Positions 6,978 to 45,380 of a stretch of 64,000 bases of DNA are shown here, piece by piece (position 1 is the first letter of the stretch; every line of letters starts with the position of its first letter). The notes beneath the pieces are model-generated. The model saw only the letters and a list, made by a program, of their open reading frames with translations, had not been told where the DNA came from and did no database searches. The translations under genes were made by a program, and so were the position numbers. The DNA is from Sphingomonadaceae bacterium (GTDB lineage Bacteria > Pseudomonadota > Alphaproteobacteria > Sphingomonadales > Sphingomonadaceae): assembly GCA_947476425.1 (NCBI GenBank), contig CANJQJ010000001.1:1-64000 (forward strand). The letters run 5' to 3'.

Positions 6978-7867
6978 CCCGCGAAGAGCGCGCGAAGCGC
7001 CGGGCTTGCGCGATCGAGCAAGTCGCGGGCGAGTGCCGCCGGGTCGCCGCTGGTTTCGCCCGCCACGGCTTCGCTTCCGTCGCCCGAATAGATTTCGGCG
7101 CGCAGCCGGATCGAGTTGCCGTCCTGCACGGCCAGCGCAGACACAGGCGAGCGGCAATCCGCCAGGAGCCCGGCGAGCAAGGCGCGCTCGGCATGGACGC
7201 AAACGCTGGTCGCGGGATCGTCGATCGCGCTGAGCATGGCGCGCATTGTGTCGTTGCTGGCCAGCGTCTCGATCCCGATCGCGCCTTGCGCGGGTGCGGG
7301 CAGCATCGTCTCGATGGGTATCGGGGTGCCGACGTCGCCTTGCCCGAGCCGGTCAAGCCCGGCGGCCGCCAGCAAGGTGGCGTCGGCCTCCCCCTCTTCG
7401 AGTTTGCGCAGCCGGGTCGCGACATTTCCCCGGAAGAGGACGATCTCGAGATCGGGGCGCAAGCGCTTGATTTGCGCACTGCGGCGGGGGGAGGAGGTGC
7501 CGAGCCTGCCACCAGCGCGGATCGAATCGAGGCTCGCCGCGCCAATCAGACGATCGCGAACGTCGGCGCGCGGCAGCATCGCGGCGATGACGATCTCGGC
7601 GGGGCGGAAGGTCTCGACGTCCTTCATCGAATGAACTGCGAAATCGATTACGCCGTCGATCAGCGCGAGATCGAGCTCCTTGGTCCAGAGCGCCTTGCCG
7701 CCGACCTCGGCGAGGGGTCGATCGAGGATGATGTCGCCGCTTGCCTTCATCGACACGATCTCGATCGAATCCTCCGGCAGGCCGAGCGCGGCGCACAGGC
7801 GACGTGCGGTTTCATGCGCCTGTGCGAGCGCGAGCGGGGAGGAGCGGGTTCCGAGACGAAGCTTCAT
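6974..7867 (-). CDS. hemC: Porphobilinogen deaminase (hydroxymethylbilane synthase)
   Basis: A 297-residue enzyme that condenses four porphobilinogens into hydroxymethylbilane. It begins MKLRLGTRSSPLALAQA. The catalytic Asp lies in H-S-M-K-D (Asp83). The arginine-rich cofactor site is around G-T-S-S-P-R-R (123-129) and R-G-N-V-x-T-R-L (146-153). The dipyrromethane-binding cysteine is Cys238 in A-D-C-R-S-P. Length is normal. First gene of the hemC-hemD-Mic60 operon, divergent from tsaD with 44 bp between starts. Confidence 0.97.
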   Translation of the reverse strand: MKLRLGTRSSPLALAQAHETARRLCAALGLPEDSIEIVSMKASGDIILDRPLAEVGGKALWTKELDLALIDGVIDFAVHSMKDVETFRPAEIVIAAMLPRADVRDRLIGAASLDSIRAGGRLGTSSPRRSAQIKRLRPDLEIVLFRGNVATRLRKLEEGEADATLLAAAGLDRLGQGDVGTPIPIETMLPAPAQGAIGIETLASNDTMRAMLSAIDDPATSVCVHAERALLAGLLADCRSPVSALAVQDGNSIRLRAEIYSGDGSEAVAGETSGDPAALARDLLDRASPALRALFAG

Positions 7868-7911
7868 GACTGTTGCCCTAATAGCCTGCGGGGTGGCAGG
7901 GAAGGGCAGAG

Positions 7912-8949
7912 ATGGCATTGATCCTTGGACTTGAATCGAGCTGCGACGAAACCGCGGCCTCGCTGGTGACTTCCGACCGGCAAATCCTGGCGCACCAGCT
8001 CGCCGGACAGGAGGCGGCGCATGCCCCGTTCGGCGGGGTGGTACCCGAAATCGCGGCGCGCGCGCATGTCGAGATGCTGGCGCCCCTGGTGGCGGCGGCA
8101 CTCGCCGAAGCGGGGGTAAAGCTCGCCGATGTGGACGCGATTGCGGCGACTGCCGGGCCGGGGCTGATCGGCGGGGTGATGGTCGGGCTGGTGACAGGAA
8201 AGGCGCTCGCGATGGCGGCGGGCAAGCCGCTGATCGCGGTCAACCACCTCGAAGGCCACGCCTTATCCCCGCGCCTTGCCGATCCGGACCTGCAATTTCC
8301 CTATCTGCTGCTGCTTGTCTCGGGCGGACATTGCCAGTTGCTCTCGGTCGAAGGTGTCGGTCGCTATCGCCGCCTCGCGACCACGATCGACGATGCGGCT
8401 GGCGAGGCATTCGACAAGACCGCTAAGCTGCTCGGGCTTGGCTATCCGGGCGGGCCTAACGTCGAGGCGGCGGCGCGCGAGGGGGATCCGAAGGCGGTGC
8501 CGCTGCCACGTCCGTTGCTCAACTCGCCCGAACCGCATTTTTCCTTTGCTGGCTTGAAGAGCGCGGTGTTGCGCGCGCGCGATTCGGGAAGATATCGCGA
8601 CGCGGATATCGCCGCCTCGTTCCAGCAGGCGGTGGTCGATTGCCTGGTCGATCGAACGAAGCGGGCCTTGGGCAGCATCGCCGAGAGGCCGTCCGCGCTT
8701 GTCGTCGCAGGTGGCGTTGCGGCCAACACAGCAATCCGGAATGCCTTGCAAGGAGTCGCCGCCGCGCATGACCTGCCCTTTTTCGCGCCGCCGCTCTGGC
8801 TGTGCACCGACAATGCGGCGATGATTGCCTGGGCGGGCGCCGAGCGCCTTGCCGCCGGGTTGACCGATCCGCTCGACGTTCCGGCGCGCGCGCGCTGGCC
8901 ATTGGATCCGACCGCCGAAAAGGCGCGCGGCGCAGGAGTGAAGGCATGA
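7912..8949 (+). CDS. tsaD: tRNA N6-adenosine threonylcarbamoyltransferase
   Basis: A 345-residue ASKHA-fold protein that, with TsaB and TsaE, transfers threonylcarbamoyl to A37 of ANN-decoding tRNAs. It starts [17 protein letters not shown]. The metal-binding H-L-E-G-H has His112 and His116. It also has the G[12 protein letters not shown] segment and a C-terminal [11 protein letters not shown] block with the third ligand. Normal length. The stop overlaps the gpsA start as ATGA. Confidence 0.97.
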
Positions 8950-9923
8950 GGATTGGCGTGATTGGTGGCGGGGCCTGGGGCACCGCGCTCGCGCAGGTTG
9001 CGGCGGGCCATGGGGACGACGTCCTGCTCTGGGCGCGCGAGGCCGAGGTCGTTGAGGCGATCAATGGGGCGCATCATAATCCGCTGTTCCTGCCGAACGT
9101 TACGCTCGCTCCCGCGATCCGCGCGACCTCCGAGCTTGCCGCGATGGCGGGTGCAGATGCGCTGTTGCTGGTTACTCCTGCACAGCATCTGCGAAGCATC
9201 CTTGGCGAACTCCCGCAAATGGCCGTGCCGCTCGTACTTTGCGCCAAGGGCATCGAAGCGGGATCGCAAAAGCTGATGTCCGAGGTTGCCGCCGAGGCGC
9301 AGCCGGGTGCGCCGATCGCGGTGCTTTCCGGGCCGACCTTCGCGCATGAGGTAGCGGCCGGGCTTCCGACCGCAGTTACGCTGGCCTGCGCGGACGAGGT
9401 GGTCGGGGCGGCCTTGTGCCAGCGATTGGCGCGCGCGACGTTCCGGCCCTACGCCTCGAGCGACGTGATCGGTGCCGAGATTGGCGGAGCGGTCAAGAAT
9501 GTACTCGCGATCGCCTGCGGCGTGGTGGATGGGATGAAGCTCGGCCTGAACGCCCGTGCAGCGCTGATCTCGCGCGGATTCGCCGAAATGACTCGCTTCG
9601 GCATGGCGCGCGGTGCGCGCGGCGAGACGCTCGCCGGATTGTCGGGGCTGGGCGATCTCGTGCTTACCTGCTCGTCGACGAGTTCGCGCAACTTCTCGCT
9701 CGGCAAGGCAATCGGCGAAGGCGGCCGCGCGGCTGACCTGCTCGCTGATCGCCGCACCGTGGCCGAGGGCGCGTTCACCGCGCCGGTGCTGGCGGAGGCG
9801 GCGCGGGCGGCCGGGGTCGAGATGCCGATCGTCGCCGCAGTGTGCGCGCTGCTGGACGGCTCGGCCGGGGTTGAGGCGGTCGTGACGGGCCTGCTGTCGC
9901 GTCCGTTGAAGACCGAGGGGTAG
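8946..9923 (+). CDS. gpsA: Glycerol-3-phosphate dehydrogenase [NAD(P)+]
   Basis: A 325-residue cytosolic enzyme that reduces dihydroxyacetone phosphate to sn-glycerol 3-phosphate, feeding phospholipid synthesis. The N-terminal Rossmann motif is [10 protein letters not shown] (8-17). Then come [15 protein letters not shown], the catalytic lysine region [12 protein letters not shown], and [12 protein letters not shown]. Start codon overlaps the tsaD stop, so the two are translated from one message; the tsaD-gpsA pairing is common in sphingomonads. Confidence 0.97.
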
Positions 9924-9982
9924 GGTCGATTCATTTGGATTGAACATCTCCGTTCAGTTCCTCCCGTCATTGCAACTCGCTT

Positions 9983-10076
9983 CGTCATCCCGACGAAAGT
10001 CGGGATCCATGGGACCCACAGGTCTCGCGATCGTGCGATAACCGTATCGTGGATCCCGGCGTCCGCCGGGATGACG
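9983..10076. repeat. Paired palindromic repeat (about 95 bp)
   Basis: Two hairpins, ATCCCGAC-GAAA-GTCGGGAT (9987-10006) and ATCCCGGC-GTCC-GCCGGGAT (10053-10072), lie in an outer inverted repeat CGTCATCC/GGATGACG. The centre holds ATGGGACCCACAGGTCTCGCGATCG. Inverted in orientation relative to the copies at 11850 and 58317. Confidence 0.9.
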
Positions 10077-10184
10077 ATTCATTAGTTATGAAACGAACTT
10101 CCCTCCCGTGCAGCGCGGAGCAGGGATGACGGAAGCAAAGGCCACCGATTGCACGCCCAATCCCGACTTGCTATGGCCGGGGCC

Positions 10185-10388
10185 ATGATAAAGCCGCCCG
10201 AAACGATCCGCATCCCAACCGCCCGCGTCGCCTGCGACGGGGCAAGCGACATACCGGGGGGCGCCGCGCTTGGGCATCCCCGAATCTGGCTTCAGATCGA
10301 CGAATCGGGCGCGGCCGAATGCGGCTATTGCGATCGGCGGTTCGTGTTGATCGGCGGGCCTGCGGATAATGGTGTAAAAGCTGCCTGA
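10185..10388 (+). CDS. Zinc-finger domain protein (NDUFS6-like)
   Basis: A 67-residue protein with one Cys near residue 17 (V-A-C-D-G), a His in G-H-P-R-I-W-L, and a C-x-x-C pair in E-C-G-Y-C-D-R-R-F-V-L. This is the zinc-binding pattern of the alphaproteobacterial COG4391/NDUFS6-like family, homologues of a small complex I assembly subunit. The ATG at 10185 fits the usual family length; another in-frame ATG lies at 10173. It precedes tldD by 18 bp and may be co-transcribed. Confidence 0.8.
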   Translation: MIKPPETIRIPTARVACDGASDIPGGAALGHPRIWLQIDESGAAECGYCDRRFVLIGGPADNGVKAA

Positions 10389-10406
10389 ACGACTTATATC
10401 GGTCAC

Positions 10407-11837
10407 ATGAACGATTTCATTTCCGATCCCCGCCGTCTGCTTTATCGCGACACGCTCGACCCGGAGACCGCGCAGCGGCTGGCCGCTTCAGCGCTTTCCA
10501 AATGCGATGATGGCGAGCTTTTTCTCCAGTATCAGACCTCGGAGAGCTTCGGCTTCGACGATGGCCGGCTGAAGACCGCCGATTACAGCAGCCATGCCGG
10601 CTTCGGCCTGCGCGGGGTAACCGGCGAGACCACCGCCTTTGCGCACGCCAACGAACTGAGCGAAGCCGCGATTCGCCGCGCTGCCGAGACGATGACTCTG
10701 CTCGATCCAGCCAAGGGCGCCAAGGCGCCGCCGCCGCGCCACACCAATGTCGCGCTCTATACCGCCGATGATCCGCTTGGCCTTGTGCCGTTCGCGCGCA
10801 AGGTGGCGCTCTGCCAGGAGATCGACGCAGCCGCCCGGGCGCGCGATCCTCGCGTCGTGCAGGTTTCGGTCGGGCTGTCGGCGAGCTGGGGCGTCGTCGA
10901 AGTGGTGCGGCCGGATGGCTTCATCGCGACCGACGTCCGCCCGCTGGTGCGGCTCAATGTCTCGATCGTCGCCGAGCGTGACGGCCGTCGCGAAAGCGGG
11001 TTCTTCGGGCTGGGCGGTCGCTATCTTTACGATCGCCTGTTCGAGCCCGCCACCTGGAACCGAGCGATCGACGAAGCGCTGGCGCAGGCGCTGGTCAATC
11101 TCGATGCAATCCCCGCGCCTGCTGGCGAGTTCACCGTGGTATGCGGCCCCGGCTGGCCCGGTGTGCTGCTCCATGAAGCGATCGGCCACGGCCTCGAGGG
11201 CGACTTCAACCGCAAGGGCACCTCGGCTTTCTCCGGCCGCATCGGCGAGCGAGTCGCCGCGCCCGGCGTCACGGTGATCGACGACGGATCGATGAGCGAA
11301 CGGCGCGGATCGCTCAGCATCGACGATGAAGGCACGCCGACTCAGGCGACCACATTGATCGAGGACGGCATATTGAAGGGCTATCTCCAGGATCGCCTCA
11401 ATGCCCGGCTGATGGGTGTCGCCCCGACCGGCAACGGCCGCCGCGAAAGCTATGCCCATGCGCCGATGCCGCGCATGACCAACACCTTCATGCTCGGCGG
11501 CAAGGAAGAGCCCGGCGAGATATTGGCGCGCGTGAAGCATGGCATCTACGCGAAAAGCTTCGGCGGCGGGCAGGTCGATATCACCTCGGGCAAGTTCGTC
11601 TTCTCCTGCACCGAGGCCTATATGATTGAGAATGGCCGGCTCGGCGCACCAATCAAGGGCGCGACGTTGATCGGCGACGGCCCCTCGGTGCTGACTCGAG
11701 TCAAGGCGATCGGCAACGACATGGCGCTCGACGAGGGCGTCGGGATTTGCGGGAAAGCCGGCCAGTCGATTCCTGCGGGCGTTGGACAGCCGACTCTGCT
11801 GATCGATGGGCTGACGGTTGGCGGCACGGCGGCGTAG
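10407..11837 (+). CDS. tldD: Metalloprotease TldD
   Basis: A 476-residue subunit of the TldD/TldE (PmbA) heterodimeric zinc protease, which degrades unfolded peptides and matures some modified peptides. The zinc motif is H-E-A-I-G-H (His257, Glu258, His261) within V-L-L-H-E-A-I-G-H-G-L-E-G-D. Other family blocks are R-R-G-S-L-S-I-D-D-E-G-T-P-T and a C-terminal G-x-D-M-x-L-D-E-G-V-G-I-C-G-K-x-G-Q. The partner tldE/pmbA is not in this window. Confidence 0.95.
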   Translation: MNDFISDPRRLLYRDTLDPETAQRLAASALSKCDDGELFLQYQTSESFGFDDGRLKTADYSSHAGFGLRGVTGETTAFAHANELSEAAIRRAAETMTLLDPAKGAKAPPPRHTNVALYTADDPLGLVPFARKVALCQEIDAAARARDPRVVQVSVGLSASWGVVEVVRPDGFIATDVRPLVRLNVSIVAERDGRRESGFFGLGGRYLYDRLFEPATWNRAIDEALAQALVNLDAIPAPAGEFTVVCGPGWPGVLLHEAIGHGLEGDFNRKGTSAFSGRIGERVAAPGVTVIDDGSMSERRGSLSIDDEGTPTQATTLIEDGILKGYLQDRLNARLMGVAPTGNGRRESYAHAPMPRMTNTFMLGGKEEPGEILARVKHGIYAKSFGGGQVDITSGKFVFSCTEAYMIENGRLGAPIKGATLIGDGPSVLTRVKAIGNDMALDEGVGICGKAGQSIPAGVGQPTLLIDGLTVGGTAA

Positions 11838-37100: not shown

Positions 37101-37514
37101 ATGTCTCGAAACGCCGCAAGGCCGCTCTCACCGCATCTTACGATCTGGAAATGGGGGCCGCACATGCTGGTCTCGATCCTGCATCGTGTCACAGGTTCGG
37201 CACTCGCCTTTGGCGGAGTCCTGCTCCTGGTATGGTGGCTTGCGGCCATCGCAAGCGGGCCGGCTTATTACAGCTTTTTCCTCGACATGATGACCAAGGA
37301 CCAGGGTGGGCTCAACTGGATCCCGCTGATCATCCTGGTCGGGCTGACCTGGAGCTTCTTCCAGCACCTCTTTACAGGGCTTCGGCATCTCCTGCTCGAT
37401 ACGGGCGCGGGCTATGAGCTCAAGACCAACAAATTCTGGTCGCTGATGACGATGGTCGGCTCAGTTGCCGCCACCATTGCGATCTGGAGCGAACTCCTGC
37501 TGGTGAGGCAATAA
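37101..37514 (+). CDS. sdhC: Succinate dehydrogenase cytochrome b556 subunit
   Basis: A 137-residue membrane anchor of complex II with three helices. R-P-L-S-P-H-L near residue 7, S-I-L-H-R-V-T-G-S near 25 (quinone-site Ser/Arg), and the haem-ligand region H-L-F-T-G-L-R-H-L-L-L-D-T-G near 90 are all present. Its stop (TAA) shares one base with the sdhD start. Confidence 0.95.
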   Translation: MSRNAARPLSPHLTIWKWGPHMLVSILHRVTGSALAFGGVLLLVWWLAAIASGPAYYSFFLDMMTKDQGGLNWIPLIILVGLTWSFFQHLFTGLRHLLLDTGAGYELKTNKFWSLMTMVGSVAATIAIWSELLLVRQ

Positions 37515-37903
37515 TGGGTACTGGAACGGGGATCGGCCGCGTTCGCGGGCTTGGCTCGGCCAAGTCGGGCGCGCTGCACTGGTGGCATCAGCGGCTGACG
37601 GCGGTCGGCAATCTCGTGCTGATGGCGTGGTTCGTGACGTCGCTCGTGCGCATGCCGTCATATGACTATAAGAACGTCTCCGAATGGCTTGCCTCGCCGC
37701 TGGCGGCGGTGCCGATGGCGCTGCTGATCCTCTCGGTGCTCACCCACCTGCGCATCGGCCTGCAGGTGCTGCTCGAAGATTATCTGCACGATGAAGGCAC
37801 CAAGCTTGGTGCCATCATCCTGCTCAACTTCTACGTGATCGCGGCGGGTGCGCTCGCGCTGTTTTCCATTCTCAAGATCGCCCTCGGAGGGGCCCCAGCC
37901 TGA
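37514..37903 (+). CDS. sdhD: Succinate dehydrogenase membrane anchor subunit
   Basis: A 129-residue three-helix anchor beginning with [19 protein letters not shown], the usual SdhD start. The second haem-ligand helix holds [14 protein letters not shown]. The ATG overlaps sdhC by one base and its TGA overlaps the sdhA ATG, so sdhCDA are tightly coupled. Confidence 0.95.
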
Positions 37904-39705
37904 TGACTTCGGCCTACAAGATCATCGACCATGTCTATGACGCCGTAGTCGTCGGCGCGGGCGGGTCTGGCCTGCGCGCCACGATGGGCATCGCCGAGGC
38001 AGGGCTGAAGACCGCCTGCATCACCAAGGTCTTCCCGACGCGCTCTCACACCGTGGCAGCGCAGGGCGGCATCGCCGCGTCGCTCGGCAACAACACGCCG
38101 GATCACTGGACCTGGCACATGTACGACACCGTCAAGGGCTCCGACTGGCTCGGCGATCAGGACGCGATCGAATATATGGTGCGCGAGGCGCCCGCCGCCG
38201 TGCTCGAACTCGAGCATGCCGGCGTGCCGTTCAGCCGCAACAATGATGGCACGATCTACCAGCGCCCGTTTGGCGGCCACATGCAGAATATGGGCGCTGG
38301 CCCGCCCGTGCAGCGCACCTGCGCCGCGGCCGATCGCACCGGGCATGCGATGCTTCATGCGCTCTACCAGCAAAGCCTGAAGTACAGCGCGGACTTCTAC
38401 ATCGAATATTTCGCGCTCGACCTCATCATGCAGGACGGCGTCTGCAAGGGCGTGATCGCGCTCTGCATGGAAGACGGCAGCATCCATCGTTTCCGCAGCC
38501 ATGCGACCGTGCTCGCGACGGGCGGCTCGGGCCGCACCTATTTCTCGGCGACTTCGGCGCATACCTGCACCGGCGACGGCGGCGGCATGGTGCTGCGCGC
38601 TGGACTGCCGCTCCAGGACATGGAGTTCGTCCAGTTCCACCCGACCGGCATCTACGGCGCTGGCGTTCTCATCACCGAGGGCGCGCGCGGCGAGGGCGGC
38701 TACCTGACCAACTCGCAGGGTGAGCGCTTCATGGAGCGCTATGCGCCGTCGGCGAAGGATCTCGCCTCGCGCGACGTCGTCTCGCGCTCGATGGCGATGG
38801 AGATCCGCGAAGGCCGTGGCGTCGGCAAGGAAGGCGACCACATCTTCCTGCATCTCGACCATATCGATCCGAAGGTGCTTCATGAGCGATTGCCCGGGAT
38901 CACCGAGACCGGCAAGATCTTCGCGAATGTCGATCTGACGCGCCAGCCGCTCCCCGTCACGCCGACGGTCCATTACAATATGGGCGGCATCCCCTGTAAC
39001 TATCATGGCGAGGTCGTCACGCTCAAGGACGGCAACCCGGACAGCGTCGTCCCCGGCCTGTTCGCGGTGGGCGAAGCGGCGTGCGTGTCGGTTCACGGCG
39101 CGAACCGCCTCGGCTCCAACTCTCTCATCGATCTCGTCGTGTTCGGTCGCGCAACCGGCTTCCGCATTGCGGAACTCGTCAAGCCGAACAGCAAGCATGG
39201 CCCCGTCAACACGGCGGCGGACGACAAGGCGCTCGCGCGTCTCGATCATTTCCGCAACGCCAAGGGCGGTTCGCCGACGGCGGAAATCCGCCTCAAGATG
39301 CAGCGCACGATGCAGAAGCATTGCGCGGTGTTCCGCGACAGCGAGCTGCTCGCCGAGGGCGTGACGCTGATCGACAATGTCTACGCCTCGCTGCAGGACA
39401 TCGGCATCCAGGATCGCTCGCTGATCTGGAACACCGATCTGGTCGAGACGCTCGAGCTCGACAACATGCTGCCGCAGGCAGTGGTGACGATGCATTCGGC
39501 GGCTGCCCGCAAGGAAAGCCGGGGCGCACACATGCACGAGGATTTCCCCGATCGTGACGACGCCAACTGGATGAAGCACACGATCTCGTGGTTCGAGGGC
39601 GACGCAGGCAAGGGCGGCAAGACGACACTCGATAGCCGTCCGGTGCATGATTACACGCTCACCGACGATATCGAATACATCAAGCCGAAGGCGCGCGTAT
39701 ATTGA
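37903..39705 (+). CDS. sdhA: Succinate dehydrogenase flavoprotein subunit
   Basis: A 600-residue FAD-binding subunit oxidising succinate to fumarate. G-A-G-G-S-G-L-R-A (18-26) binds FAD; the covalent-FAD histidine is His49 in T-R-S-H-T. Substrate-site blocks are [17 protein letters not shown], and [26 protein letters not shown] is the C-terminal FAD loop. Its usual partner sdhB is not next: a palindromic repeat and four other genes intervene. Confidence 0.98.
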
Positions 39706-39884: not shown

Positions 39885-40844
39885 ATGAACATGCAGGCCA
39901 GCCAGTGGCGTGCGATCGCGCTTGCCGAGGAAGTGACTGGCGGCAAGCCGCTTGGCGTCGTCTTCAATGGCGAACCGATCGTTCTGTTTCGCAATCAGGA
40001 CGGCGTCGTGCGAGCGCTTGAAAATCGCTGCCCGCACCGCCGGGTCCCGCTTTCGCTCGGCAAGGTGCGGCCCGATGGGCTCCTTCAATGTGGCTATCAT
40101 GGCTGGTCGTTCGACGGCGAGACCGGCAAGTGCGGGCTGATCCCCAACCTGCGGGCGGACGAGAAGGTGCCTGCCACATACGGCGTATTCCCGTATCGTG
40201 CGGCCGAGCGGCACAACATGGTCTATATCTCGGTCGGCGGCGATGTCGCCGCATTGCCGGAAGCCAATATTCCGTCAGGCACACGCGACTTTTCGGGTCG
40301 GGTTATGATCGGCCTGTCGCCCGATGATTATATCGAAGCGCTGATGGACGGTCCCGATCTGCTGCTGGATTGCGCAGGAATGCGCATTTCACGGACGATG
40401 GCGGCCGATCCGCATGAGCGGGACGGCATGCTGGTGATGGAGCGTGCGGCCTACTGGTTCGGGCAATCGAGCTTCGACGGCTTCGTCCGCGAATATGGGC
40501 TGCTTTTCCGACTGGCGGTGCAGCCCGGTACCGGCGAGATCTGGGCAAGTTTCCTGCGTCCCGACGGCGTGATGCTGGCGGGCGCACACATGGCGATCTC
40601 GTCAGCGAGGCGGGGTGTCAGCGCAGTGTTGTGGCGCTCGTTCGTTTCGCCGGCTTCCGGACCGCGCGCCGCGCTGCTTGGGCTCGCCGCAAGGCTGGGT
40701 CGTGCGCCCATCGCCCCCCGCCAGGCAATCGACATGGCGGCGGTGGCCGATCTGTTGGCCGGTCCGTCAGAATATTGGGAGCGCGGAACCCAGGACGAAG
40801 GTCTATACGGCGACGTCGTGATGAAGGAGAGGGCCCGGATATGA
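39885..40844 (+). CDS. Rieske-domain protein lacking the mononuclear iron site (subunit 1)
   Basis: A 319-residue protein of the ring-hydroxylating/oxygenase alpha-subunit family. The [2Fe-2S] Rieske motif is canonical: C-P-H (Cys49, His51) and C-G-Y-H (Cys69, His72) with 17 residues between. The following catalytic-domain fold is recognisable, but where D-x2-H-x4-H should sit it reads A-L-M-D-G-P-D-L-L-L-D-C, with no histidine. It should carry electrons but not activate oxygen on its own. GGGGGAG precedes the ATG at 39885 (an upstream GTG is possible). The stop overlaps the next start as ATGA, so the two Rieske-type proteins are made together. Confidence 0.88.
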   Translation: MNMQASQWRAIALAEEVTGGKPLGVVFNGEPIVLFRNQDGVVRALENRCPHRRVPLSLGKVRPDGLLQCGYHGWSFDGETGKCGLIPNLRADEKVPATYGVFPYRAAERHNMVYISVGGDVAALPEANIPSGTRDFSGRVMIGLSPDDYIEALMDGPDLLLDCAGMRISRTMAADPHERDGMLVMERAAYWFGQSSFDGFVREYGLLFRLAVQPGTGEIWASFLRPDGVMLAGAHMAISSARRGVSAVLWRSFVSPASGPRAALLGLAARLGRAPIAPRQAIDMAAVADLLAGPSEYWERGTQDEGLYGDVVMKERARI

Positions 40845-41881
40845 GCGTGACCCAGATGCAAAGCCGCGAATCCACCGAGCGCAAGATCCTCCGCGATTGG
40901 GTGCCCGGACGCACTCCGATGCGTGACGCCTGGATCCCGATTGCGCATGCCGCGCATGTCACGGCACAGCCGACGTGGCGGCCGCTGCACTCGCTTCGCT
41001 ATTATCTGTGGCGCGAGCAGGGCAGCTTGCACGCGGCTGAATTTCATCCGCGCGAGCTGGCGGTTCGGCGCGCCGAGGCAAGTGTGTTTACGGGCGGCAC
41101 AGGCCTTTACCCGGTTGCGGAGCGCTATGGGATGATCTGGGTGTGGTATGGCAATCCGGAGAATGCGCGGGAAAGCCTGCTGCCCAATCTGCCCCATCTG
41201 CCGATCGACGGCGGCCTGCCGGCCTATATGCGTGGCCAGACCCGGATAAACAGCTGTGCTGAGCTGACCATGGAAAATCTCATGGACCTGACTCACACCG
41301 ATTTCGTCCATGCCGATCTGCTTGGCGATCCGATTGCCGACAGCGATGTCGTGACCGTCGATTCGACCTCCGAAACGATCACCATGGTACGGACATGCCA
41401 TAACAAGGCGGTCGCGCCGCTGATGCAGAAGGCAGCGGGGATAAAGGCGACGACGCAGAATGTCCGTTTCACGATCCACATCTACGTCCGCAGCCATGTC
41501 GCTGCGATCTTCAGCCGTTTCGAACCTGGCCTCGACGTACGGCTGCTCCATTGCAGCACCCCGGAAACGCGGGACAGCAATCGGGTGAATTTCATCCAGA
41601 ACACCGAATCGGCGAAGCGTCCATGGCGCTATGTCTTTCCGCTGGCGTCGTACAAGATTGGTGCGCAGGATGATTATGTGCTTCGCCCGCAGGCCGCGCG
41701 CTATCACGAGGCGATCGACCGGCGCGATCTGCATTCGCGGTTCGACACGGCTTCGGTGCGCTATCGCTTCCTGGTGGAACAGATTCTCGAGCGCCAGAGT
41801 CGGGGCGATTATTCCTATGAATCCGATGACTTGATCAGCGGCGACAAGAGCGACATATTGGGCATGCACCGTCCGGTTTAG
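40841..41881 (+). CDS. Rieske-oxygenase-family protein with iron site but no Rieske cluster (subunit 2)
   Basis: A 346-residue protein whose C-terminal two thirds match the catalytic domain of Rieske oxygenases. E-N-L-M-D-L-T-H-T-D-F-V-H provides the bridging Asp149 and iron ligands His152 and His157, and A-Q-D-D-Y-V-L (about 277-278) supplies the third, carboxylate ligand. The N-terminal domain keeps flanking Rieske-fold blocks (R-D-A-W-I-P-I-A and G-L-Y-P-V-A-E-R-Y-G-M-I-W-V-W-Y-G) but is shortened by about 20 residues and has neither C-x-H nor C-x2-H. The other plus-strand frames there hold no such motif either, so a frameshift does not explain it. Substrate unknown; no reductase or ferredoxin gene is adjacent. 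Confidence 0.88.
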   Translation: MSVTQMQSRESTERKILRDWVPGRTPMRDAWIPIAHAAHVTAQPTWRPLHSLRYYLWREQGSLHAAEFHPRELAVRRAEASVFTGGTGLYPVAERYGMIWVWYGNPENARESLLPNLPHLPIDGGLPAYMRGQTRINSCAELTMENLMDLTHTDFVHADLLGDPIADSDVVTVDSTSETITMVRTCHNKAVAPLMQKAAGIKATTQNVRFTIHIYVRSHVAAIFSRFEPGLDVRLLHCSTPETRDSNRVNFIQNTESAKRPWRYVFPLASYKIGAQDDYVLRPQAARYHEAIDRRDLHSRFDTASVRYRFLVEQILERQSRGDYSYESDDLISGDKSDILGMHRPV

Positions 41882-41901: not shown

Positions 41902-43314
41902 TTGAGCGAATTGCCGCCAGGTTCCGAACGCACGTCTGAACGTACTCCTGGCCGCAAGCTGATGTTTGCGCTGCTCGTCGGGGTGCTGCTTTCGATCCCG
42001 CTCTTTTCGGTTTGGCTGCTTGTCTATGACCGGCAGAGCCAGTCTGAAGTCGCGCGATCCTCGATTGCGGAGGGCTGGGGCGGGCCGCAGACCTTCGCCG
42101 GGCCGATGCTCGTCATTCCCTTTCAGGATACCACCACGGAGACGGTGACCGAGGGCGGCACGCCGGTCACCAAATCGCGCACGATCTGGCGAGAATTGTT
42201 CATCGCCCCCACTGCGGTCGCGCTCGACACGCAGATCAAGCCTCAGCGCCGCCAGCGCTCGATCTATGAGGCGGTGGTCTACGACACCGCCGTCAACGGG
42301 CACGCCGCGTTTGCCCTGCCCTCCGATCTGCCGCGCTATGGCGTGACGCTCGATCGGCTGCTTTTCGATCGCGCCGAGATCCGCTTCGGTCTCTCCGATG
42401 CGCGCGGGGTTGCGGCGGATAACAAGGTATCGGTCAACGGCACGGCGCTGACTCTCCAGCCGGGCAATGGCCTTGTCGCGACCAACCGGTCAGGCTTTTT
42501 CGCATGGTTTGACGGCGCGGCGCTGAAGAGCGGCGTGGTAACGGCCGATTTCCGCTTCGGCTTCCGCGGCAACGCCAATGTCACACTCGCGCCCAGGGCA
42601 GGGGAGACGGTTTGGACGGTGCGTTCCACCTGGCCTAGTCCGAGCTTCACCGGCGGCTTCCTGCCGGTCGATCGCCATGTCTCGGACAAGGGCTTCACGG
42701 CGACCTGGCGGATCAGCAATCTCGCGCTCGGGGCGTCGCTGGTCACGACCGAAGACGGTAATGATACCAATGCGCCCGGAAATGCCCCTGATCGCGGCAG
42801 CGTAACGCCGCCGGGCGACTTTCAGGCGCGGGTCGATCTCATCCAGCCGGTCGATCTCTATGCGCAGGTCAGCCGCGCCGCCAAATATGGCTTTCTCTTC
42901 ATCGGCTTCACCTTTCTCGCTTTCCTGATGTTCGATGTGATTGGCGGGGTGCGCGTCTCGACCGTGGAATATCTGCTGGTCGGTGCGGCGCTGGTACTGT
43001 TCTTCGTGCTTCTGCTCGCCTTCGCCGAAGTGATTGGCTTTACGCCGGCCTATATCGTCGCGAGTGCCGCGACGATCGGACTCATCACAACCTATTCCGC
43101 TGCGGTGCTGCGAAGCTGGCGGCGTGCAGGCTTCGTTGGCGGTCTGCTGCTCGCACTTTATGCGGTGCTCTATGTGCTGCTCAGTCTCGAAGCCTATTCG
43201 CTGCTGATCGGATCGGTGATGCTGTTCGCGGCGCTCGCCTTCGTGATGTACGTGACCCGACGCCTTGACTGGAGCGGGCGGCGTTCATCGCCAGCGGAGG
43301 TTGGTCCGGCCTAG
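41902..43314 (+). CDS. creD: Inner-membrane protein CreD family
   Basis: A 470-residue protein with one helix near 18-40, a large periplasmic beta-rich domain (about 45-330, with G-W-G-G-P-Q-T-F-A-G-P-M-L-V-I-P near 60), and five to six helices at the end. This is the layout of CreD, an envelope-integrity protein controlled by CreBC in enterics; no creBC is seen here. A V-D-x-Y-x-x-V-x-R-A-x-K-Y-G-x-L-F-I block before the last helices is the best match. The start is probably TTG at 41902 after GGAGGGGGGA; no ATG is in frame before 41962. The 3' end overlaps the convergent oxidase gene by 30 bp. Confidence 0.88.
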   Translation: MSELPPGSERTSERTPGRKLMFALLVGVLLSIPLFSVWLLVYDRQSQSEVARSSIAEGWGGPQTFAGPMLVIPFQDTTTETVTEGGTPVTKSRTIWRELFIAPTAVALDTQIKPQRRQRSIYEAVVYDTAVNGHAAFALPSDLPRYGVTLDRLLFDRAEIRFGLSDARGVAADNKVSVNGTALTLQPGNGLVATNRSGFFAWFDGAALKSGVVTADFRFGFRGNANVTLAPRAGETVWTVRSTWPSPSFTGGFLPVDRHVSDKGFTATWRISNLALGASLVTTEDGNDTNAPGNAPDRGSVTPPGDFQARVDLIQPVDLYAQVSRAAKYGFLFIGFTFLAFLMFDVIGGVRVSTVEYLLVGAALVLFFVLLLAFAEVIGFTPAYIVASAATIGLITTYSAAVLRSWRRAGFVGGLLLALYAVLYVLLSLEAYSLLIGSVMLFAALAFVMYVTRRLDWSGRRSSPAEVGPA

Positions 43315-44433
43315 GTCTGCGACCGAGCGTGCGCCCATCAGGCGCATGTCGCGCTCGATCTCGGCCTTGAGCTTGGCGAGCACGCGATCGACGCCAGCTT
43401 CGCCAGCCGCCGCCAGCGCATAGAGATAGAGGCGACCGCCCGAGACGGCCTTGGCGCCGACCGAGAGCGCCTTGAGCACATGGCTGCCGCGCTGGATGCC
43501 GCCGTCGCAGATCACGTCGATGCTGTCGCCGACTGCATCGCATATTTCGGCGAGCTGGTCGAAGGGCGCGCGGCTGCCGTCGAGCTGGCGACCGCCATGG
43601 TTGGAGACCATGATCGCGGTCGCGCCGATATCGACCGCTCGCTTCGCGTCGTTCACCGACATGATGCCCTTGAGGCAGAATTGCCCGCCCCATTGCACAC
43701 GGATCTTCTCAGCGGTTTTCCAGTCGAGCGCCGGATCGAGCATCTCGTTGAGATAGGACGCGACCGAGATCGCGATGTTCGAGCCTTGTGCGACATGCTT
43801 GCTGAGGTTTGGCAGGTCGAAGCGTTCGCGCAGGAGATAGTTGAGCGTCCAGCGCGGGTGGGTAGCGAAGCTCAGCGCCGAGCGCGGGGTCAGCCGGGGC
43901 GGCGAGGTGAAGCCGCTGCGCAGGCAGCGCTCGCGATTTCCGGCGACGACGGTGTCGACGGTCAATGCGAGTGCGTCGAAGCGCGCCGCCTTGGCGGCCT
44001 CGATCATCGCGTCGTTCAGCCCCCGATCCTTGTGGACATAGAGCTGGAACAGTTTCGGGCTTGATATCGTCCGGCCGATTTCCTCGAGGCCGACCGTGCC
44101 GAGCGAGGATATGCCGAACCAGGTGCCGATACGTTCTGCCGCACGGGCGACCGCGCGTTCGCCTTGCCAGTGGAAGAGGCGCTGGAGGGCGGTTGGCGAC
44201 AGCATCAATGGCATTGCGATCTCGCGTCCCATCACGGTGGTGCGCAGATCGACGCTGTCGACGCCGGCCAGCACGTTGGGAACGAGGTCGCAGCTTGCAA
44301 AGGCCTCGGTGTTTCGCCGTTGGGTAAGTTCGTCGTCAGCGGCGCCATCGATGTAGTGGAATACCGGGCCCGGCAGGCGCTGCCGGGCCAGTTTGCGGAA
44401 ATCCTGGACGTTGTGGCAGTCCTTGAGACGCAT
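43285..44433 (-). CDS. FMN-dependent alpha-hydroxy-acid oxidoreductase (LldD-like)
   Basis: A 382-residue TIM-barrel flavoenzyme of the lactate/glycolate/mandelate dehydrogenase family. R-L-P-G-P-V-F-H-Y-I-D-G-A-A-D-D-E is at the N-terminus, Q-L-Y-V-H-K-D near 130, L-T-V-D-T-V near 155, and the catalytic-base block S-N-H-G-G-R-Q-L-D-G near 275. The substrate is not decided by sequence. The enzyme could feed electrons into the quinone pool beside succinate dehydrogenase. It is on the opposite strand to everything around it, convergent with creD and divergent from sdhB (158 bp). Confidence 0.93.
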   Translation of the reverse strand: MRLKDCHNVQDFRKLARQRLPGPVFHYIDGAADDELTQRRNTEAFASCDLVPNVLAGVDSVDLRTTVMGREIAMPLMLSPTALQRLFHWQGERAVARAAERIGTWFGISSLGTVGLEEIGRTISSPKLFQLYVHKDRGLNDAMIEAAKAARFDALALTVDTVVAGNRERCLRSGFTSPPRLTPRSALSFATHPRWTLNYLLRERFDLPNLSKHVAQGSNIAISVASYLNEMLDPALDWKTAEKIRVQWGGQFCLKGIMSVNDAKRAVDIGATAIMVSNHGGRQLDGSRAPFDQLAEICDAVGDSIDVICDGGIQRGSHVLKALSVGAKAVSGGRLYLYALAAAGEAGVDRVLAKLKAEIERDMRLMGARSVADLGRTNLRWR

Positions 44434-44591: not shown

Positions 44592-45380
44592 ATGGCTGAA
44601 TTCTCCCTGCCCGCGAACAGCAAGATCAAGAATAACGGCAAGACCTACAAGGCGGCTTCTGGCGCGAGCAATGTCCGTTCGTTCAAGGTCTACCGCTATG
44701 ATCCGGATTCGGGACAGAATCCCCGTTACGACCGCTATGAGGTCGATCTCGACGAATGCGGCCCGATGGTCCTCGATGCCTTGCTCAAGATCAAGAACGA
44801 GATGGATCCGACGCTGACCTTCCGGCGCTCGTGCCGCGAGGGCATCTGCGGTTCCTGCTCGATGAACATGGACGGCACGAACGGCCTTGCCTGCACCACC
44901 GCGATCGAGGATTGCTCCTCGAAGGAAGTGCAGATCACTCCGCTGCCGCACATGGACGTGATCAAGGATCTCGTTCCCGATTTCACGCATTTCTATGCGC
45001 AATATGCTTCGATCAAGCCTTGGCTCCAGACTGTCACGACGACACCGTCGGGCTCCGAGCGGCTTCAGTCGCCTGAGGATCGCAGCAAGCTCGATGGCCT
45101 CTACGAGTGCATCCTGTGCGCCTGCTGCTCGACATCGTGCCCGAGTTACTGGTGGAACAGCGACAAGTTCCTCGGCCCGGCGATCCTGTTGCAGGCCTAT
45201 CGCTGGCTTGCCGACAGCCGCGACGAAATGACCGGCGAGCGGCTCGACGAGCTCGAGGATCCATTCCGCCTCTATCGCTGCCACACGATCATGAACTGCG
45301 CCAATGTCTGCCCCAAGGGCCTCAACCCGGCGCGCGCGATCGCTGAAATCAAGAAGATGGTGGTGGAACGCGCGGTCTGA
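44592..45380 (+). CDS. sdhB: Succinate dehydrogenase iron-sulfur subunit
   Basis: A 262-residue subunit relaying electrons from FAD to quinone. [2Fe-2S] ligands are in C-R-E-G-I-C-G-S-C (Cys81, 86, 89) and Cys101. The [4Fe-4S] and [3Fe-4S] sites are [12 protein letters not shown] and [17 protein letters not shown]. Intact and of normal length, with GAGG upstream of the ATG. It is 4.9 kb from sdhA with an opposite-strand gene between, so it must be separately transcribed. Downstream is a thioesterase gene only three bases away. Confidence 0.98.

Follow-up and report, generated by a model that had tools for sequence, protein, structure and literature searches.

Genes at the locus

The window, that is, the whole stretch of DNA that was analysed, comprises 64,000 nucleotides of a Sphingomonadaceae genome. 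Two genes of the Rieske oxygenase type lie on its plus strand: chain 1, a Rieske-bearing protein of 319 amino acids (39885..40844, the start being the ATG at 39885), and chain 2, the putative mononuclear-iron chain of 346 amino acids (40841..41881). The stop of the former and the start of the latter overlap as ATGA (40841..40844, plus strand), as a preliminary description of this DNA had stated, and the same overlap is found at two further loci of the window's clade (L077 and L079). Both chains are predicted to have the two-domain fold of Rieske oxygenases; the catalytic domain of chain 1 is degenerate, and the N-terminal domain of chain 2 is without Rieske ligands.

In chain 1, the Rieske motif is intact and reads C49-P-H51-x17-C69-x2-H72, with the four ligands of a [2Fe-2S] cluster, Cys49, His51, Cys69 and His72, encoded at 40029..40100 (plus strand). 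At the place of the oxygenase motif D-x2-H-x4-H, residues 152-163 read ALMDGPDLLLDC; in this degenerate mononuclear-iron site (residues 151-163; 40335..40373, plus strand), Asp155 is present and both histidines are missing. The only Pfam family matched by chain 1 is Rieske (E = 9.7e-23, residues 7-91), Rieske_2 remaining under the cut-off, and a PDB sequence search matches the chain to the N-terminal part of 58 distinct sequences. Rieske-type ferredoxins consist of a single small Rieske domain of about 110 amino acids; chain 1, given its length and a model that aligns over both oxygenase domains, is not of this kind.

Chain 2 carries the motif E145-N146-x2-D149-x2-H152-x4-H157 (41273..41311, plus strand), which contains two iron ligands and the bridging aspartate. 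Further towards the C-terminus the chain reads Q276-D277-D278, in which Asp277 (41669..41671, plus strand) is taken as the third, carboxylate ligand. There is no cysteine before residue 139 of the window's chain 2. Its only Pfam match is VanA_C (E = 2.7e-33, residues 136-317), and its matches in the PDB sequence search are mainly confined to a stretch of about residues 89-165 of a few oxygenases. Ring_hydroxyl_B (PF00866) is matched by neither chain type in Pfam searches of the window's pair and of 27 sequences of each type. Neither chain alone is thus a Rieske oxygenase alpha subunit, because the Rieske and iron motifs do not occur in one chain; only the pair together has both.

Conservation of the complementary losses

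We compared 91 pairs, some of which are near-copies. They consist of 85 of the 86 chain-2 rows (L132, which has no chain 1 on its contig, was excluded) and six pairs that were read among the more divergent ones given by whole-genome profile searches. The 86 rows represent 78 different sequences; L074 and L093 are identical. Note that the scan pattern ENL[IM]DLTH includes Asp149 and His152 and therefore partly selects them; His157, Asp277 and all residues of chain 1 are outside the scan patterns. Gene starts were derived from simple ORF rules, and negative spacings are unreliable. Alignments A3 and A4 contain 27 hand-chosen sequences each.

Complementary ligand loss is established for every one of these pairs. 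The four Rieske ligands are identical in 91/91 chain 1s, and Glu145, Asn146, Asp149, His152, His157, Asp277 and Gln284 are invariant over the 91 chain 2s. A 2-His-1-carboxylate site with a bridging aspartate (Asp149, His152, His157 and Asp277) is consequently present in chain 2 only, and a regular expression for the Rieske motif matches none of 92 chain-2 ORFs. At the degenerate site of chain 1, Asp155 and Pro157 are each kept in 90 of the 91. The Pfam results are equally uniform: all 27 chain 1s match Rieske-type families only, a Pfam catalytic domain being found in none of them, and all 27 chain 2s match VanA_C only. The preliminary description had assigned an intact Rieske motif without an iron site to the first chain, and D149-x2-H152-x4-H157 with a C-terminal DD and no cysteine ligands to the second; the sequence, the Pfam matches and the comparison of homologues agree with it on both.

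A joint alignment of 23 chain 1s and 23 chain 2s with 24 ordinary oxygenases adds further detail. Two residues next to the cluster, Arg53 and Trp74, are invariant in chain 1 (23/23 each) and occur in 0/24 ordinary oxygenases. The Asp277 column is aspartate in 24/24 ordinary oxygenases and a gap in the 23 chain 1s; its constancy in the former points to Asp277 as the third ligand. The 24 are the top sequences by chain-2 score among 49 collected by a regular expression that demands both motifs; hence, their D/H/H columns are not independent evidence, whereas the Asp277 column is.

It had been stated beforehand that the interpretation would fail if homologues held the missing ligands in other places, and no such homologue was found. 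Displaced Rieske ligands in chain 2 can be set aside: columns 20-130 contain no cysteine in 67 of 86 chain 2s, one in 18 and two in one. A shifted iron site in chain 1 can likewise be rejected, since a loose D-x2-H-x4-H occurs in three chain 1s only and always off the site, upstream of it in L144 and L155 and downstream in L145. In 15 of 85 chain 1s there is a histidine at column 165, which one alignment can place against the first histidine ligand; the column of the second is never histidine in the 23 chain 1s aligned with the 24 ordinary oxygenases.

The median pairwise identity is 35% among chain 1s and 45% among chain 2s. These values bear on the suggestion that the chains are decaying pseudoenzymes, or misread through a sequencing error or a wrong frame. 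Such an origin would explain why each is without a centre that the family normally needs, but it leaves unexplained that the retained ligands are identical in 91 pairs despite so much divergence, that the frames are open, and that the pairs are spread over several orders and plasmids; we regard it as practically ruled out.

Pairwise identities within one chain type are correlated with those within the other (r = 0.97, a value inflated by common ancestry). Of 12 pairs examined from four multi-pair genomes, however, only 8 have chains that share their closest outside relative, which speaks against a joint enzyme. The chain-2 tree divides into three principal clades, namely that of the window (with L077, L078 and L079), a mostly sphingomonad clade (40 rows) and a Pseudomonas/Burkholderiales/Rhodocyclales clade (42 rows). 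In an unrooted tree of the 23 chain 1s, 23 chain 2s and 24 ordinary oxygenases, each chain type forms one clade (support 100/99 and 100/100), but such a tree cannot tell whether the two clades are sisters. The scores of the 49 ordinary oxygenases to the two chain models are not correlated (rho = -0.23, p = 0.11), so that no common closest relative can be named.

Other Rieske proteins of the source genome

As a control, we considered the remaining Rieske proteins of the same genome. PF00355 is found at 17 places, two of which are chain 1s (contigs C1 and C3). A further 13 are full-length oxygenases of the ordinary kind, and every one of them has the iron motif in the same chain, 12 being recognized by regular expression and one (L170) by eye in the printed frame. 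The last two places hold short frames of 230 and 207 aa. The first expression used, D-x2-H-x4,5-H, caught 5 of the 12. Once this was seen, its first position was opened to E, N or C as well, and in this wider form it also hits three of the 91 chain 1s, away from the site. Since all ordinary oxygenases of this genome carry the iron motif in the same chain, the complementary loss in the window's pair is not due to chance.

Two observations may be recorded here. The second pair of the source genome, at L071 (G000:C3:66000-84000), occupies 8478-10499. On the minus strand of L171 (G000:C16:49900-53200), outside the Pfam places, there is a 373-aa frame with a loose Rieske match and no iron motif; it may be a shadow frame that matches by chance.

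Occurrence of the pair

Among 249 genomes of the family, chain 1 and chain 2 each have six strong places; the two sets coincide and are well separated from the matches that follow. At a limit of E = 1e-10, 93 of the 249 genomes match chain 1 and 30 match chain 2; beyond the six pairs, the matches run from E = 9e-23 and 3e-14 upward, respectively. These weaker matches, which were not individually read, look like ordinary oxygenases and were excluded from the pair counts. When 296 genomes of the order were searched, six matches to the chain-1 profile reached at least 401 bits, and ten more, at 109-117 bits, covered the Rieske part only; with the chain-2 profile, six matches of at least 555 bits appeared, at the same six places in four genomes.

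Wider searches give the same picture. A scan of the genome contigs of 84,980 species with the chain-2 alignment yielded 134 relatives, and the 80 best were retained; 79 of these 80 loci have a chain-1 Rieske frame directly upstream on the same strand, and the 80th is at a contig end. In 20 further genomes, selected for carrying a pair and searched with limits of 1e-40 and 1e-20, all 29 chain-1 places adjoin a chain 2. Chain 2 has 30 places; the surplus one is a C-terminal piece abutting the end of a contig, and it is complemented by an N-terminal piece that abuts a different contig end in that genome. A search of 72,556 plasmids with either chain leads to one set of four records, on which the two genes are adjacent. 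Of 398 genomes sampled from the phylum, the window's own is the only one in which the pair was found (E limits 1e-30 and 1e-35). Note that the genome searches score only the best first-look candidates of each genome (five; seven or six for the 296-genome searches), so absence is not proof.

The preliminary description would also have been refuted by the occurrence of either gene without the other in most genomes. Except at contig ends, this was not seen in the 296 genomes, the 20 genomes, the 72,556 plasmids or the 80 loci. Pairing is thus an observed property of these genes, and the profile searches made from both sides lead us to conclude that the pair is uncommon and, within the material searched, obligate.

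Carriers, by record title, include genera of Sphingomonadales and Acidocella, Hirschia, Pseudomonas, Stutzerimonas, Paraburkholderia, Polaromonas, Massilia, Aromatoleum, Thauera and Zoogloea, together with a Porticoccaceae bin; in Sphingomonadales, Pseudomonas, Burkholderiales and Rhodocyclales, the pair is often found amid catabolic-looking genes. One cultured carrier with a cluster of this sort is Novosphingobium resinovorum SA1. Some genomes have several pairs, namely four in the Porticoccaceae bin (G454) and three each in G467 and G468. The four of G454 (L158, L159, L077 and L083) are strongly diverged from one another. In the Gammaproteobacteria bin BRH_c0 (L157), two different pairs are about 7 kb apart on one contig, and between them are frames that we take to be SDR-, luciferase- and transporter-like. 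The chain 2 of L079, 76% identical, is in a bin labelled Verrucomicrobiaceae, which represents either a cross-phylum transfer or a mis-binned contig.

Gene neighbourhoods

The window's pair is a two-gene island between the presumed sdhA (37903-39705) and sdhB (44592-45380), in a presumed run of sdhC, D and A (37101-39705) and sdhB that is interrupted by the pair and two further frames. Of the latter, we take the membrane protein frame at 41902-43314 to be CreD-like and the minus-strand frame at 43285-44433 to be like flavin hydroxy-acid oxidases. No ferredoxin or reductase gene was seen beside the window's pair, which is a point against the joint enzyme proposed below. The L077 pair (6997-8978), a close relative of the window's, presumably lies between groESL-like/groEL-like genes and a sodB-like (superoxide-dismutase-like) gene. 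In the window's clade, the two genes may thus be mobile by themselves, without accompanying genes.

Neighbouring genes vary between clades. A plant-type ferredoxin gene is present in 36 of 86 neighbourhoods, mostly in the sphingomonad clade, in which TetR, luciferase-like, FAD_binding_2, SDR and sulfotransferase genes also recur; typical neighbours of the Pseudomonas pairs are SDR, VOC, CoA-transferase, acyl-CoA dehydrogenase and phosphotransferase genes. Genes annotated for coenzyme F420 synthesis are found near the pairs of plasmids pSA2 and pCME4A9I (L166 and L168), and the L071 pair is followed by genes that resemble, by order and sequence, the F420 synthesis and F420-dependent genes of these plasmids. 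F420 synthesis beside a catabolic-looking cluster seems unusual in Sphingomonadales. Genes of the FAD_binding_2, ferredoxin, SDR and F420 types led us to consider a role in steroid or terpenoid breakdown, but we do not claim it.

The surroundings also bear on whether each degenerate chain serves, structurally or in regulation, as a subunit of a complete Rieske oxygenase whose gene lies elsewhere. Partners would be available, since the source genome has at least 13 complete oxygenases, and a ring-hydroxylating beta-chain gene and a complete alpha-chain-like gene are near the pair in 11 and 10 of 86 neighbourhoods, respectively. However, a complete oxygenase is nearby in a minority only, the two chains accompany each other in every complete case, and the complementarity of their losses would be left without explanation. 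We therefore consider this arrangement very improbable.

In three annotated plasmid records, chain 1 is named 'Rieske (2Fe-2S) protein' or 'Rieske 2Fe-2S domain-containing protein', and chain 2 'oxygenase' or 'aromatic ring-hydroxylating dioxygenase subunit alpha'. If the two form one enzyme, such separate, generic names matter, because expression of a single gene would then give inactive protein.

Predicted structures

AlphaFold models were built from 27-sequence alignments and have a mean pLDDT of 89.1 for chain 1 and 83.0 for chain 2. The closest known structure is dicamba monooxygenase in both cases: 3gte_C for chain 1 (Z = 22.9, rmsd 3.6, 279 aligned, model residues 2-314) and 3gke_A for chain 2 (Z = 28.5, rmsd 2.6, 280 aligned, model residues 24-322). 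In their predicted structures, both chains thus share the two-domain fold of an alpha subunit.

The preliminary description had called the pair a split oxygenase. The complementary losses expressed by this term hold for the 91 pairs, but the word 'split' is misleading: both models align over nearly their full length with dicamba monooxygenase, so the gene was not cut between domains. As modelled, the pair looks like two paralogous alpha-type chains, each of which is without one centre, rather than one gene cut in two.

Another possibility is that chain 1 is an oversized Rieske carrier that docks transiently on a homotrimer of chain 2, with no mixed ring being formed. Chain 1 does keep only a redox centre, and, judging from its lower median identity, it evolves faster. 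A carrier, however, would not need the two-domain oxygenase fold that the chain 1 model retains over 279 residues, nor does this possibility account for the Asp155 that persists in the degenerate catalytic domain, or for the Asn/Asp device of chain 2, which in known enzymes faces the Rieske domain of the neighbour. We consider a transient carrier unlikely, without dismissing it.

Proposed mechanism and assembly

We think it highly likely that chains 1 and 2 make up one oxygenase, in which the Rieske chain feeds the iron chain; its assembly and activity are inferred. The interpretation given in the preliminary description is supported, in that two of its three tests of refutation were run and both came out in its favour. 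The metal content of the chains is inferred as well, and the following steps are a proposal. A ferredoxin or reductase would reduce the [2Fe-2S] cluster of chain 1. The electron would then cross the interface to the neighbouring subunit via the Asn146/Asp149 device of chain 2 and reach an iron presumably held by His152, His157 and Asp277, where O2 would be activated and the substrate, probably a hydrophobic ring compound, mono-oxygenated or demethylated. Both this electron path and the type of reaction are inferences. Chain 1 would serve as a dedicated electron-delivery chain and chain 2 as the catalytic chain, and neither should function alone or as a homotrimer.

Known oxygenases provide the background for such a path. 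The distance from the Rieske centre to the iron is about 12 A across subunits and 45 A within one subunit (PMC12445004), and a universally conserved aspartate appears to bridge the two centres (PMC5033481). In our pairs, Asp149 is present in 91/91 chain 2s though none has a Rieske motif, so chain 2 appears to be built to take electrons from a neighbour's Rieske centre. Since it is also accompanied by chain 1, a mixed oligomer is the most likely enzyme. Physical association of the chains is inferred from pairing and conservation, and the linkage could also mean co-regulation without a complex.

A problem arises when the standard architecture is applied to this pair. Because the standard ring has three members and each of its contacts has a direction, an alternating 1:1 trimer is impossible. 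The inferred options are a 2:1 ring, a dimer or an even-membered ring; the standard C3 arrangement does not fit otherwise. Chain 1 has conserved Asp155 and chain 2 an entire pseudo-Rieske domain, which suggests that a non-working contact is also made. In its most specific form, our proposal is a bacterial family in which electron transfer and O2 activation are divided over two obligate paralogous chains, whose assembly is not a C3 homotrimer but a 2:1 ring having one working Rieske-to-iron contact, a dimer or a ring with an even number of members, and in which Asp155 of chain 1 and the pseudo-Rieske domain of chain 2 form the non-working, ring-closing contact. We offer this form tentatively, as a proposition that stands slightly below an even chance. 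It is this odd-ring problem that makes the architecture of the pair worth solving.

Comparison with known systems

The alpha3 oxygenases of the dicamba monooxygenase DdmC/VanA type are the closest solved fold for both models and first or second among the sequence matches; the pair probably works like a Rieske oxygenase. DdmC (DMO), GdmA and SxtT differ from it in being alpha3 homotrimers (PMC12445004), with both centres in each alpha chain. Inter-subunit electron transfer in Rieske oxygenases is normally studied in homotrimers of this kind. A natural enzyme with one centre per chain, if real, would allow each centre to be studied, mutated and titrated separately, and the cross-subunit route would become directly testable.

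In the caffeine demethylases, each of the chains NdmA and NdmB is a complete oxygenase, whereas neither chain of the bacterial pair is. They resemble the pair in forming an alpha3 alpha'3 hetero-oligomer of two alpha-type chains (PMC12445004). The alpha3 beta3 ring-hydroxylating dioxygenases also build their oxygenase component from two gene products, but both chains here are of the alpha type and the beta chain has an unrelated fold. In addition, that beta chain is without catalytic centres (PMC12445004). The 'two-subunit' wording of PMC12746152 refers to another enzyme, and its own subject is an ordinary alpha/beta oxygenase. No bacterial two-chain or heteromeric Rieske oxygenase of this kind was found in the open-licence PMC literature; subscription papers may hold one.

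The known parallel is the chlorophyllide a oxygenase of Micromonas pusilla (MpCAO). In work by Kunugi dating from 2013, the Rieske and iron sites of MpCAO reportedly lie on different chains. MpCAO is a eukaryotic plastid enzyme, unlike the bacterial pair, and an independent origin of the latter is likely, although no comparison with the MpCAO sequence was made. MpCAO is one Rieske oxygenase on two polypeptide chains, which gave chlorophyllide b with VanB and NADPH and for which a heterodimer or a trimer of dimers was proposed (PMC9615114). Two chains with complementary centres, the feature looked for in comparison with the algal enzyme, are present in the window's pair and in 90 others. What had been observed for a single pair is confirmed and generalised to a conserved family with an algal parallel.
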